64,000 nucleotides of DNA from contig JAFEGA010000006.1 in assembly GCA_018240285.1 (NCBI GenBank), positions 186,001 through 250,000 of the forward strand, given 5' to 3'. This document shows positions 51,431 through 57,244 of the stretch, piece after piece. The first letter of the stretch is position 1. Each line of letters starts with the position of its first letter. A model generated the notes under the pieces. That model did no database searches, had not been told where the DNA came from, and was given only the letters and a program-made list of their open reading frames with translations. The stretch is from Pseudomonadota bacterium. GTDB taxonomy: Bacteria > Pseudomonadota > Gammaproteobacteria > Burkholderiales > Nitrosomonadaceae. Both the position numbers and the translations under genes were made by a program.

Positions 51431-52204
51431 TTAGAAAAGGCCGGAAATAGAACGCGCCAATCCATTGGTCAATTCAACCGCGGCTTCTTCGTACTGCAAA
51501 TTCACTTTATTGGCTGTGCTCACTACGCGCGTGCGGAATTTGTTCATCTCGCTGACTTTTGTCGACGATTGTCTTCGCGCGCCACCGACGCCTTGTTTTG
51601 CATCTTGCTGCCGGTCTTCACGGACAATGACGCCTTCTTCGGCGCGTTCCGCGATCTCGACATCGGTAATCGCCATGAATGTGACATCTTTCACCGCCGC
51701 ATCGGCGAGCGTGCTCGCGACACCAAACGCCGCCGCGCCAGCCAATCCGCCAATGCCAGCGCCCGTCCAACCGCCCATCGCCGCGCCAGTGGCTGTTCCC
51801 ACGGCAGCACCTAAGGCGGCACTACCCATGCCGCCATACCCGGCTCTCAGCGCAGACTCTGCGGCGGTCGGGCTGGCCTTGTCGACACTCAGCACGTTGG
51901 CTTGCAGCCAGTAATGCGCTTCTTTCGGATTGGTGGTGATACGGTAACCGCGGCCTTCCAATGCTCTGGCGACTGTCGCGGTAATATCAAAATTGGTTTT
52001 ATCGGAAGTGTTGCGAATGTTCAGGTAGATGACTTTTTTACTGGGTTCGACGGGATCCAGAAAAATAGAGTCGCTCATTTTGGTTTGCACATCCAGATCC
52101 TTTTTGGCAATGGACGTGTGAACCGCGGCGCACCCGCTTAAAATCAAAGAACATAGCGCGATTCCTGTCATTACCCAGGTATTTTTGTTAATGGAGTAAC
52201 CCAT
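51431..52204 (-). CDS. TraT-like outer-membrane lipoprotein
   Basis: A 257-residue lipoprotein (lipobox ILSGC). It matches the TraT complement-resistance/surface-exclusion family: AVHTSIAKKDLDVQTKMSDS, VYLNIRNTSDK-type strand, a Gly/Ala-rich central hydrophobic segment (GAAVGTATGAAMGGWTGAG) and the end FRTRVVSTANKVNLQYEEA. Chromosomal TraT homologues are common in proteobacteria and need not be linked to conjugation; no plasmid genes are nearby. It sits between the LTXXQ-like and Gly/Tyr-rich genes on the same strand. Confidence 0.85.
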   Translation of the reverse strand: MGYSINKNTWVMTGIALCSLILSGCAAVHTSIAKKDLDVQTKMSDSIFLDPVEPSKKVIYLNIRNTSDKTNFDITATVARALEGRGYRITTNPKEAHYWLQANVLSVDKASPTAAESALRAGYGGMGSAALGAAVGTATGAAMGGWTGAGIGGLAGAAAFGVASTLADAAVKDVTFMAITDVEIAERAEEGVIVREDRQQDAKQGVGGARRQSSTKVSEMNKFRTRVVSTANKVNLQYEEAAVELTNGLARSISGLF

Positions 52205-52821: not shown

Positions 52822-53937
52822 CTACTGTAGATACAGCCGTTTGAATAGACCAGTTTGAGCCGCATATTCCGCATTTGCCTTGTCGAGCAGCGCGATATCT
52901 TCAGCAACAGCGGCTTGAATATCGGCACCGATGCCGGTTTTGATCGCTTGCGCTGCTCGCATCGTGCGCTGCGCGTCATCTTGCTGATCCAGCAGGAACT
53001 GCATCAATCCCAGCTGATACAACACGTATTGCCGCTTCTCGTCCGGCGTTTCCAGCAACGTGCCATGAAAATTCCAGGTGGCTTGATTCTTCGGTTGATC
53101 GCTGACGGTTTTCTGACCGGCTAATGTCATGAATTGCTCCAAGTAGAGCTTTGCCATCCGTGGTTTACCCGAATGCGCATAGCTTTGCGCGATCCCCACA
53201 TGCGCCAGCAGGTAATCGCGATCCAGCGTCAGGATTTTTTCATACAATTTGATCGATTCTGGGTATTGGCCGAGCTTGCGGAGAATTCCGGCGAGATTGT
53301 TCAAATAAGACTGATTCCACGGTGAGCGCTCGACTGCTTTCTGATAGTGCACCAATGCTTGCGCTAGATTCGACTGGATTTCATGCCAATAACCCATGCC
53401 GAAATAAGCCGCTGCCGGTTGGCGGCCGGATTGCATCGCCGTTTCGTAATATTTCTGCGCTGCGGCAAAATCCTCCCGCTGCACCGCAAGATCGCCGTAC
53501 AGAATGAGCACGTACGGATTATCCGGCTGCTGCCGCTGCAGAAAATCGAGTTGCCGTTCAACCGCTTGCGGCCGGAAATCCTGCCGGATTTGACGTGCCG
53601 CTTCGACGATGAAGCGGCCGATTTGTGCGTCGACGTGCAATTTGTCGATCGCCAATGCCTTGCCGAATTCGTCATCGGCTTGATCGTAAAGCTGGTCGTC
53701 TAAGAACGCCTGCCCGAGCGCCACATGATTGGCCACCACTTGCTGCTGGAATTGCCGCTGCTGCTCGGCGTAATCGAAGCCTTGCTGTTCGGCGACGATG
53801 CGCTTGAGCATGTGCAGCGGTTGAATGTCGTGCAGCACCCATGCCGCCAGCGCCACCGCAATGGTAAAAATAACGCCGAGCGCCGGTAAGATTTTATTGA
53901 ATTGCTCCAGCGATTGCTGCAATCGTTCAAACGTCAT
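52822..53937 (-). CDS. Membrane-anchored TPR protein, partner of the WD40-caspase gene
   Basis: A 371-residue protein. One transmembrane helix (about residues 18-36, GVIFTIAVALAAWVLHD) follows a short cytoplasmic N-terminus. The remaining part is soluble and helical, with TPR-like repeats: LGQAFLDDQLYDQADDEFGK, AAYFGMGYWHEIQSNLAQAL, NLAGILRKLGQYPESIKLYE and HVGIAQSYAHSGKPRMAKLY. By the positive-inside rule these repeats should be periplasmic. The start lies 11 bases past the stop of the caspase gene, so the two form an operon. A protein-binding role is likely. Confidence 0.78.
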   Translation of the reverse strand: MTFERLQQSLEQFNKILPALGVIFTIAVALAAWVLHDIQPLHMLKRIVAEQQGFDYAEQQRQFQQQVVANHVALGQAFLDDQLYDQADDEFGKALAIDKLHVDAQIGRFIVEAARQIRQDFRPQAVERQLDFLQRQQPDNPYVLILYGDLAVQREDFAAAQKYYETAMQSGRQPAAAYFGMGYWHEIQSNLAQALVHYQKAVERSPWNQSYLNNLAGILRKLGQYPESIKLYEKILTLDRDYLLAHVGIAQSYAHSGKPRMAKLYLEQFMTLAGQKTVSDQPKNQATWNFHGTLLETPDEKRQYVLYQLGLMQFLLDQQDDAQRTMRAAQAIKTGIGADIQAAVAEDIALLDKANAEYAAQTGLFKRLYLQ

Positions 53938-53948
53938 GGTCGGGTTGC

Positions 53949-56900
53949 TTATGGTTTACAGCCCGGCTTATCGTAACCGGCTTTGCACGCAATCGGGAAC
54001 GAATCGCCCTGGATCAGGCGCATCGGGATCTGCTCGAAGCCCCATTTCTGCTGCGTAATTCTCGGCACTTGTTCGCGCACGTAGTCGGCCAGTTCGTCGA
54101 GCGAAATGCTGCCGTCGTTCGAGCCTGCGCGGCTGGCGTGGCCTTTCAAGCCCTCAAGCAATGCCCAGGTAAATACGCCGTGCTGGTCGTGCCCTTCCAG
54201 TGCTTGCTGTTTTTCCGTGGTGGCGGCCAGCACGTAACGGCCGGTGGCGCGCATCAGGCGGTCGATCGCCGATTTGTCGCCAATGCCGCCGCGTGTCAGC
54301 ATGGCAAACTGCTGGCCTTCGGCAAAATCGGCGGCGAGTTGTCCGGCGGAACAGGAATCGAGAATGATCAGGCTCTTCGATGTCGGGATGCGTTTCAGCA
54401 GCGCCGCGATTTTTTCCTGCGACAGACTGGCCTTGACCAGTGTTTCGGTATTCTCGTACAGTGCTTCCCACGGGATGAAATGATAATCGCCTTGCCACGC
54501 CATGCCGTGACCTGCCATGAACAGTACGAACACGTCGTTCGGTTCCACGCGCTTGGCGGTGTCAGCAAAGGCTTTTTCGATTTTTTCAATCGTGGCATTT
54601 TCGTTGACCAGCGTTACCGGCGTATGCACGGTACGGTACAAGCCTTGTGCTTGCTGTTGCAAACGTTGGCTCAGCGTTTGCGCATCGTTGGCGGCAAACT
54701 TGAGATTCAGGTCGCGGTCACGGTAGCTGGAAATACCGACCGCCAGAATGTGCAGGCTCGGTTGTTTACTCTGCGGGTCGTGCACGCTACGCGTCAGTTG
54801 GGTGCCGCGCGAGCAAATGGTGTTGTTTTTATTGCACGCGATTATCGTGACGGTGTTGTCGCCGTCCGGCAACGTCAGCGGTTTTTCGGCATACTGCTCG
54901 TCGTCCTTGATCACGCCGCTGCGGCGGAGGGCTGAAGGCGCTTCCGAGCGCGCGGTAGTCGAGGCGATTTCAGCGCCGTTGACGAAATAACGCACCGTGC
55001 CGATGCCGCCGTTCAGTGCCTTGACCGCCACTTGCAAGATGAAGTTTCTCTGATCGCTTTTCTCACCGCTTGCACTCAACAAGCGCACTTCCGGCGGCAA
55101 GCCGTTGGCGATGAGCTGATCGATCGAACCGATGCGTGCCAGTTCGGCGGCGATTTCGCGTTCATGGCCGCCTTGCACGGTTTTCGCCACCAGATCGGGG
55201 CGGTAAAAATGCCGGCCGATCTGGTCGAGACCGACATAATCCGCCGCTTGGCCGTCACCGCGGTTGATATGGTAGCCGACATAAGCATCGCCTTTCGCCG
55301 ACGCGGTATAAAACCCGTCCTCGGTCCACGCCACCCACTCGCCGTCGTTGCCGTGGAAAATGGTCAGTAGCAACTTACCCGATGCGATTTCCCACAATTT
55401 GACCGTTTGATCGACCGAACCGGAAACCAGTAAACGGCCGTCGGGCGAAGGCGCAACCGCCCAGACGTCGCCGGTATGGCCGGTAAAATCGCGCAGCTCG
55501 CGGCCGCTGGCGGTATCATACGCTGTGAGGACACCATTGCCGCCACCGCTGATCACCGTGCGGCCATCCGGCGTTAATGTGATGCTGAGGTGATCATAAC
55601 CGGTCGTGTTATCGCGAGTAATCGTGTGGAGGACTTGGCCGTTTTTTTTGATCTGCAATGTGGGGTCGATCCGGCCGGATGCGGTACCCACCGAAATCGC
55701 ACCTACCGTGCCGATTGCGCGCAGGAAGCGGGCCGATGCGGGCGAACTGGGCGCGGTAGAATCGACGGGTTTGCCGAGCGTCAGACTGAAATTACCGGCA
55801 GCATCTTGCAGTTGGAAAGAGTGTTCCAGTGCTGTCAAGCTCATTATTTCTACATTTCGTGGCACTCTACCCCACGCAATCGACCGGCCGTCGTCGGCAA
55901 AACCGGCGCTCCGGATTTGTCCGCCTCGTCCAATCAGGCGTTGCTGGATTGTGCCGGTGCGGATATTCCACAAATAAATTTCCTGATTGTTGCCACCGCC
56001 AGTTGCGGCGGTGTTGCCGTCCGGGGAAATCGCGGTGGCCAGCACGATGTTTTGATGACCGGAAAACGAAGCCATCAGATCGCCGGACGGGATGGCGAAC
56101 ACGTTGTTTGTACTCCCCTGACCTTTACCTACTCCTGTCAGCACTTTGCTGCCATCCGGAGTTATGGATAAATGTTCGACCGAAGCATCTTGCCGTGCCA
56201 GCACTTTGATCGCCGCGCCGGTTTTGCCGTTCCATAAGCGGATGGTTCGATCGACACTGCCGGATAGCAGGTAGTGGCCGTCCGGCGTAAACGCAGCCGA
56301 GGCTACTTCGTCCTCGTGTCCGTGCAAATTGTTAAGCAGTTTGCCGGAGGTGGAATGCCACAGTTTCAAGCTGTGATCGAGACTGCCGGTCACGACCAAA
56401 CGGCCGTCGGGCGAAAAAGCCACGGCGTAAATGTGATCGCGATGCCCGCTCAGCGTGTACAGGCTTTGATCGCTGGTGACGTCCCAAATCCTTGCGGTGT
56501 TGTCAAAACTACCGGATACTAGCCGACGGCCATCCGCTGAAAAAGCCAAACTGAGAATGACATTTTGATGGCCTTGCAACAAGCGCACGACTTGGCCGCT
56601 GGCGAAATCAATCAGACGGATATTACCGCATTGTCCCGCGCACTCGGGATGCAACCATCCCCCCAAAGCCAGCCAACGGTTATCCGGCGACAAAGCGGCG
56701 GCATAAATTTTACCTTCGTTCCCCGGCCCGATCTGGCCGCGCAAGATGCGGAGCGTTTTGCCGCTGGCGATGTCCCATACGCGCACGGTTTTGTCGTTCG
56801 ACGCTGAGATCAACGTTTTGCCGTCGTTAGTGAAAAAGATATTTTTTATTTTTGCCATGTGCCCGCCGCTGTCGATTTGCAGGATCGGCTGGGTGTCAGG

Positions 56901-57020
56901 CGCCGTCCGGGAGGCGTCAGTAGTGGGAGATTGCGCCGGTCCGGGAGCGGGCGGCACGGTGCTGCACGCGCTGACGAGCCAAGCCAGCAGCAACTCTACG
57001 AGAAACAGCCGGTTTTTCAT
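53949..57020 (-). CDS. WD40-repeat caspase-like (peptidase C14) lipoprotein
   Basis: A 1023-residue protein counted from the ATG at 57020 (ATG 57032 is also possible). The N-terminus is a lipoprotein signal with lipobox VSAC followed by Ser, predicting an outer-membrane lipoprotein. About ten WD40-type repeats follow (residues 45-640), for example GRRLVSGSFDNTARIWDVTS and GRLLVSGSVDQTVKLWEIAS. The C-terminal caspase (C14) domain has the dyad His838 (FMAGHGMAWQGDYHF) and Cys890 (LDSCSAGQLAADF). It is expected to be an Arg/Lys- or Asp-directed cysteine protease regulated by the propeller. The frame remains open upstream to 57548 but that part has no family features. A repeat (57098-57237) lies in its upstream region. 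Confidence 0.85.
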   Translation of the reverse strand: MKNRLFLVELLLAWLVSACSTVPPAPGPAQSPTTDASRTAPDTQPILQIDSGGHMAKIKNIFFTNDGKTLISASNDKTVRVWDIASGKTLRILRGQIGPGNEGKIYAAALSPDNRWLALGGWLHPECAGQCGNIRLIDFASGQVVRLLQGHQNVILSLAFSADGRRLVSGSFDNTARIWDVTSDQSLYTLSGHRDHIYAVAFSPDGRLVVTGSLDHSLKLWHSTSGKLLNNLHGHEDEVASAAFTPDGHYLLSGSVDRTIRLWNGKTGAAIKVLARQDASVEHLSITPDGSKVLTGVGKGQGSTNNVFAIPSGDLMASFSGHQNIVLATAISPDGNTAATGGGNNQEIYLWNIRTGTIQQRLIGRGGQIRSAGFADDGRSIAWGRVPRNVEIMSLTALEHSFQLQDAAGNFSLTLGKPVDSTAPSSPASARFLRAIGTVGAISVGTASGRIDPTLQIKKNGQVLHTITRDNTTGYDHLSITLTPDGRTVISGGGNGVLTAYDTASGRELRDFTGHTGDVWAVAPSPDGRLLVSGSVDQTVKLWEIASGKLLLTIFHGNDGEWVAWTEDGFYTASAKGDAYVGYHINRGDGQAADYVGLDQIGRHFYRPDLVAKTVQGGHEREIAAELARIGSIDQLIANGLPPEVRLLSASGEKSDQRNFILQVAVKALNGGIGTVRYFVNGAEIASTTARSEAPSALRRSGVIKDDEQYAEKPLTLPDGDNTVTIIACNKNNTICSRGTQLTRSVHDPQSKQPSLHILAVGISSYRDRDLNLKFAANDAQTLSQRLQQQAQGLYRTVHTPVTLVNENATIEKIEKAFADTAKRVEPNDVFVLFMAGHGMAWQGDYHFIPWEALYENTETLVKASLSQEKIAALLKRIPTSKSLIILDSCSAGQLAADFAEGQQFAMLTRGGIGDKSAIDRLMRATGRYVLAATTEKQQALEGHDQHGVFTWALLEGLKGHASRAGSNDGSISLDELADYVREQVPRITQQKWGFEQIPMRLIQGDSFPIACKAGYDKPGCKP

Positions 57021-57097
57021 CGGTCGGTCCATATCAAGAATTAAGTGGCTGAATCTTAAACCGGACAGCGCTGGTTTGCCAATAGCGGCGGGTGTAA

Positions 57098-57237
57098 CAG
57101 GCCGTTGAAAAACTATCTGCGTTGCCGCTACGGTGTTAAAAACAAGCTCAAAATGCTCATTTATTGCGCATAAACTGCGCTTTTTCGCCTGTTTTTGCTT
57201 TGTATCGGCTGCCTCGAAAACGTTTTTCAACGGCCTG
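57098..57237. repeat. MITE-like element, copy 2, upstream of the caspase gene
   Basis: A 140-bp element with perfect 16-bp terminal inverted repeats (57098-57113 and 57222-57237, arm CAGGCCGTTGAAAAAC). The inner core AAAATGCTCATTTA (57150-57163), then TAAACTGCGCTTTTTCGCCTG, is nearly the same as that of copy 1 (9368 onward). The termini differ from copy 1 but are self-complementary. It fills the space between folB and the caspase gene. Confidence 0.75.
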
Positions 57238-57244
57238 GTAACGG

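Follow-up and report, generated by a model that had tools for sequence, protein, structure and literature searches.

An exported WD40-caspase and its conserved TPR partner: a candidate two-protein envelope module in a Nitrosomonadaceae genome

Bacterial WD40-metacaspases and orthocaspases (PF00656) have a C14 domain with a His/Cys dyad that can be fused to WD40 repeats, and they occur in membrane and extracellular forms as well as in operons with OmpA (PMC3501461). The 2012 survey of this group counts 98 caspase homologs at the membrane and 30 outside the cell, reports N-terminal signals or helices, names WD40 as the commonest extra domain, finds OmpA in 14 operons with bacterial caspase homologs and discusses an extracellular or fratricidal action (PMC3501461). 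The statement of an initial annotation of the locus studied here, that described caspases with WD40 or TPR partners are cytoplasmic, is thus not borne out. Similar effectors and repeat sensors are also found in the caspase/TIR/TPR conflict systems of multicellular prokaryotes (PMC7159879, PMC8195603, PMC10907252), with some periplasmic sensors being predicted in Thiohalocapsa (PMC10907252). The anti-phage proteins ThsB (Thoeris) and bSEFIR, as defined in PADLOC, resemble only the TIR or SEFIR domains of relatives of this locus.

The window, i.e. the whole stretch of 64,000 nucleotides that was analysed, stems from a nitrifying bacterium of the Nitrosomonadaceae and carries a gene for an apparently exported WD40-caspase followed by a gene for a single-pass TPR protein. 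In contrast to the WD40-metacaspases and orthocaspases described so far, the clade of the window caspase has a dedicated single-pass TPR partner, in some members with a TIR or SEFIR domain. Unlike in ThsB and bSEFIR, this domain is joined via a transmembrane (TM) helix to a presumably periplasmic TPR region and paired with an exported caspase, and the window copy has neither TIR nor SEFIR. The pair also differs from the conflict systems of multicellular prokaryotes in having no NTPase, EAD or EACC1 part and in that the caspase itself is exported. By analogy only, the relatives share with animal Toll-type receptors a repeat ectodomain, one TM helix, a cytoplasmic TIR domain and an extracytoplasmic protease nearby; the orientation, however, is opposite, TPR replaces LRR, and no homology is claimed. 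The caspase, WD40, TPR, TIR and SEFIR parts are already known, and the new result is the partner family of an exported WD40-caspase clade. In our search of the open-access literature we found no description of the pair or of any exported caspase with a transmembrane TIR/SEFIR-TPR partner.

The gene pair in the window

The locus comprises the following features, all on the minus strand:

52822..53937, minus strand: single-pass TM-TPR partner, 371 aa, TM helix at 16-34 (open reading frame, Pfam, profile searches, hydrophobicity)
53949..57020, minus strand: WD40-Ig-caspase (C14) lipoprotein, 1023 aa, with H838/C890 dyad (open reading frame, Pfam, dN/dS, tree)
56964..57020, minus strand: lipoprotein signal with its expected cleavage site ahead of Cys19 (LVSA↓C; from the sequence, LVCA↓C in Nm75)
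54759..55341, limits approximate, minus strand: conserved linker (WxxWTxxGFY...FYRPD) and Ig-like segment, the spacer between propeller and caspase (alignment of relatives)
53949..54758, minus strand: caspase domain, residues 755-1023 (Pfam, dN/dS 0.115, tree)

The caspase gene, whose stop codon ends at 53949, has two candidate in-frame starts, ATG 57020 (1023 aa) and ATG 57032 (1027 aa), the first of which underlies the numbering of the dyad. His838 lies in AGHG and Cys890 in LDSCSAG, both being intact, and the Asp two residues ahead of the catalytic Cys is conserved in the alignment of relatives. Together with this dyad, a Peptidase_C14 match (71.7 bits, cut-off 21.4) that spans residues 763-1004 in the 1027-aa form makes the protein a member of peptidase family C14. 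Six WD40 stretches are individually above the Pfam cut-off (PF00400, E 5e-69), about ten degenerate blades can be counted by eye, and beta blades extend from approximately 57 to 555 in the structure model. The AlphaFold model of the full protein has a mean pLDDT of 58.7, with a good propeller and a modest caspase part, and the PDB matches listed for it are propeller proteins, Apaf-1 propellers among them; no solved structure similar in sequence to the caspase domain was found. The N-terminus, MKNRLFLVELLLAWLVSAC followed by STV, contains a textbook lipobox with Ser at position +2, the assignment as lipoprotein resting on the motif (LVSAC at 15-19).

The ATG of the TPR gene is located 11 bp past the caspase stop codon. 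Its product gave TPR matches in Pfam and contains a single hydrophobic helix (residues 16-34), and its AlphaFold model (mean pLDDT 38) is useless. These results confirm what the initial annotation had read from the letters, namely the coordinates, the fusion of WD40 repeats to a C14 domain with His838 and Cys890, the lipoprotein signal and the single-pass TPR protein 11 bases downstream. Neither Pfam nor PADLOC detected a TIR or SEFIR domain in the window pair, which is assigned to neither Thoeris nor bSEFIR. PADLOC and NCBIfam gave only weak, generic or sub-cut-off matches for the window proteins and no assignment: the caspase scored 84.8 bits against the curated cut-off of 140 bits for EACC1-associated caspases (NF047832), and the TPR protein 54.6 against 312.2 bits for the PrsT PEP-CTERM TPR lipoprotein (TIGR02917). 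Rfam yielded no match at the locus, and a Pfam search of the genome revealed no second C14 gene.

Export is not peculiar to the window. With start codons of the relatives being picked by eye, a lipobox was found in the window, Nm75 (LVCA↓C) and G894 caspases and a Sec signal in those of G889, G1013, G934, G998 and G324, G numbers denoting genomes. Nearly all distant WD40-caspases that share the linker and Ig segment and have a readable N-terminus likewise start with a Sec signal or lipobox. Since the relatives are exported and the survey lists membrane and extracellular homologs (PMC3501461), envelope location is a property of a known group, in agreement with the export of the caspase proposed initially.

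A partner family beside one caspase clade

A search with the window TPR protein against 837 open reading frames from caspase neighbourhoods returned, besides the Nitrosomonas oligotropha Nm75 protein, the caspase-adjacent genes of G889 (4e-23), G1013 (3e-19) and G324 (9e-6), and weakly that of G1066 (0.0016). The similarity is not confined to the TPR repeats but includes the C-terminal region. In the whole genomes of G889 and G1013, but not in that of G324, no gene matches the window TPR protein better than the caspase-adjacent one. A profile built from five partner sequences (A4) found non-seed members adjoining caspases of the same clade in G1056 (7.5e-101), G934 (1.8e-81), G998 (5.9e-45) and G894 (6e-112). 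The partner family thus stands beside one caspase clade in nine genomes from two orders, and the window, with a caspase of this clade and an adjacent TM-TPR gene, belongs to these WD40-caspase + (TIR/SEFIR-)TM-TPR pairs. Similarity within the family is limited, the window TPR protein sharing only 23-30% identity with the Chromatium-side partners, and the G324 partner is a weak, long-branch member.

All six partner-bearing genomes among 181 of one order also encode an exported WD40-caspase, which corresponds to a hypergeometric probability of ~1e-8 by genome and ~0.001 by genus, assuming ~11 caspase-positive genomes among the 181 and with relatedness being only partly removed. In a tree of 35 caspase domains a branch with support 99/95 groups all nine partner-bearing caspases together, and partner presence requires one change as compared to 8.1 in shuffles, partner absence being based on a whole-genome profile search for most, not all, rows. 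Pairwise identities of partners and caspases are correlated (r 0.89, Mantel p 2e-4). The clade and co-occurrence tests reject the idea that the two genes are chance neighbours, and the conserved pairing is well supported. Failure to see the TPR gene conserved next to the caspase gene in any genome had been named at the outset as evidence against the pairing; finding the family next to the caspase in nine genomes and tracking one caspase clade argues instead for the specific, evolutionarily stable pair that had been suggested.

Several copies are damaged. G926 has a truncated partner and no caspase at a site where its relative G934 keeps both, as would be expected if the pair is useful only together. 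Frameshifts affect the caspases of Nm75 and G894, the SEFIR domain of G934 and the propeller of G998; as some assemblies are fragmentary, those in the G genomes may be assembly errors.

The partners differ in their N-termini. A TIR_2 domain is present in G1056, G1013 and G324 and a SEFIR domain in G926 and, in another frame, in G934, whereas the proteins of the window, Nm75, G889, G894 and G998 consist of TM helix and TPR only. The G1056 gene encodes an intact TIR-TM-TPR protein and starts a few bases past the caspase stop codon; that of G1013, with the same architecture, overlaps the caspase stop (GTGA) and is cut by the contig end, and G324 has a divergent version. PADLOC assigns matches to ThsB for the TIR domains of these partners (1e-38 to 1e-46) and to bSEFIR for the SEFIR domain (7e-32). 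These domains of the relatives, which the window does not show, had escaped the initial annotation. Such TIR and SEFIR domains work in the cytoplasm, where NAD is their target, suggesting that the N-terminus of the partner is inside and the TPR region in the periplasm together with the caspase. The charges flanking the TM helix fit this orientation in G1056, G889, G894, G998 and G934 and oppose it in G1013, G926 and G324; in the window protein they are equal, so that its sequence alone does not reveal the topology. A periplasmic TPR region with cytoplasmic N-terminal effectors, as judged from the TIR/SEFIR-TM-TPR relatives, is nevertheless reasonably supported. Of the initial proposal that both parts reside in the envelope, the export of the caspase is supported, and the periplasmic location of the TPR region is carried over from the relatives.

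Selection and local history in Nitrosomonadaceae

The pair is present in two of 125 Nitrosomonadaceae genomes, that of the window and that of Nm75, and a scan of named genomes yielded only Nm75 and two distant relatives. With this count, the expectation that the pair is widespread in the family did not hold and was rejected. Comparison of the window genome with Nm75 gave dN/dS values of 0.35 for the WD40 part, 0.23 for linker and Ig segment, 0.115 for the caspase domain and 0.19 for the TPR protein, indicating that both genes are real, coding and constrained, with the propeller being the fastest-changing part of the pair.

At both loci the pair is flanked by folB on one side and, on the other, by a gene for a protein of 116 aa with a TraT-family gene after it. 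In relatives that share these flanks, among them the closest one by TsaD identity (G034, 96%), only a few hundred bases without a match to the pair separate the flanks, and the pair thus behaves as a presence/absence unit. As pair and flanks have diverged to the same degree between the window and Nm75 (86%), a pair that was present early and lost repeatedly is no less probable than one gained by recent transfer. We found no phage match for the window caspase, no plasmid match or viral contig for the TPR protein and no association of the pair with defence islands. In Nm75 the 7-bp unit (GCAACCG)n occurs three times where the Ig segment meets the caspase domain (L065 8935-8956), and the third copy puts the caspase gene out of frame; slippage at such a repeat could serve as an on/off switch.

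Two further features adjoin the pair. The TraT-family (PF05818) lipoprotein gene at 51431-52204 has matches in 31 of the 85 members of the genus. The other lies outside the module, between folB and the caspase gene just upstream of the latter:

57095..57240, no strand assigned: element of ~146 bp with 19-nt inverted repeat ends (from the sequence; absent at this site in Nm75)

Its ends are 95% complementary, and 50 bp of it recur at 92% in G069 (L099), likewise inside the folB-TraT interval; it looks like a small mobile element.

Possible roles of the pair and other caspase neighbourhoods

We give a probability of roughly one half to a two-protein envelope module with outside-in sensing of the conflict type, for which we infer topology, complex formation, specificity, trigger and the role in conflict or defence. 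After export the WD40-Ig-C14 protease would be tethered by its lipid, probably on the periplasmic side of the outer membrane, and in the periplasm the TPR ectodomain of the inner-membrane partner is its likely docking partner or substrate. Orthocaspases cleave after Arg or Lys, and the same is predicted for the window caspase. Sister systems carry TIR or SEFIR on the presumed cytoplasmic end of the same membrane protein, and the family most likely relays a periplasmic event to a cytoplasmic NAD-type effector, with a ligand on the propeller possibly resulting in proteolysis or a conformational change at the TPR region. As the window partner has no TIR or SEFIR domain, this signal transfer is borrowed from the relatives, and, the effector being absent, the output would be the envelope protease itself or an unknown cytoplasmic partner.

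In a bolder version, which we regard as possible but tentative, the exported WD40-caspase detects or processes a periplasmic threat and acts via the TPR region of an inner-membrane TIR/SEFIR receptor to cause NAD depletion or signalling, making the family an undescribed outside-in immune module; the window would then represent an effector-less branch with the lipoprotein protease alone. If true, a single-pass TPR protein that links a caspase located beyond the inner membrane to a TIR or SEFIR domain in the cell interior would form a receptor-like arrangement that could report an envelope attack before entry. To our knowledge, known anti-phage caspase and TIR systems respond to triggers inside the cytoplasm. 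Concrete genes are available in an intact TIR example (G1056) and in the minimal TIR-less form of the window.

The pair might also be a general envelope protease, that is an orthocaspase lipoprotein that processes envelope proteins or serves in their housekeeping, with the TPR protein serving as membrane anchor or chaperone and without any role in alarm. Such a function would agree with the purifying selection on caspase and TPR, with the missing cytoplasmic effector in the window and with other exported WD40-caspase clades lying near or being fused with OmpA, or lying near CHASE2/FecR envelope genes. We nevertheless consider it rather unlikely, as it does not fit the patchy distribution within the genus, the frequent frameshifts and the TIR and SEFIR domains on sister partners; patchiness, frameshifts and the resemblance to ThsB and bSEFIR are also the reasons why we favour a conflict role over housekeeping.

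It is quite improbable that a conflict system of the TIR/SEFIR type has lost its effector and is decaying, the residual pair being neutral or disappearing. The dN/dS values of 0.115-0.19 for caspase and TPR and the intact dyad and lipobox of the window copy speak against decay, and a TM-TPR partner without TIR in three other genomes may well be a stable form, even though the window pair lacks TIR, the Nm75 caspase is frameshifted by its 7-bp tandem repeat, the pair is absent from G034 and decay of this kind is seen in G926. We think it very unlikely that the caspase is a suicide protease which damage frees from the propeller for killing in the periplasm, without signalling via the partner. Propeller and caspase do resemble parts of the apoptosome, with Apaf-1 among the structural matches as for any WD40 propeller, and broad periplasmic proteolysis could lyse cells; release of the protease, however, is a conjecture, and the conserved membrane partner and the TIR/SEFIR domains on the inner face in relatives would be left unexplained. 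The envelope module with outside-in sensing remains the reading we prefer.

Other exported WD40-caspases have OmpA, a glycine-zipper lipoprotein, FecR or CHASE2 as neighbours. OmpA, CHASE2/FecR and trypsin neighbours were rejected as general partners, as they belong to other caspase clades. CHASE2 proteins near exported WD40-caspases (L070, L075, L078 and L102), of which two contain a cyclase domain, make up a second recurrent neighbourhood, which in L070 also includes a FecR gene. Another lipoprotein WD40-caspase, in G650, is followed by an overlapping gene for a single-pass membrane protein (L101 7782-8381) that has no Pfam match and that a sequence search did not relate to the TPR partner. 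In a SAR324 bacterium a trypsin-DUF4384 protein with a signal-like N-terminus is encoded directly upstream of an exported WD40-caspase (L077 1500-3098). Finally, two loci (L070 4088-9064, L103 572-5569) encode fused signal-TPR-OmpA-WD40-caspase proteins of 1659-1666 aa, counted from stop to stop.
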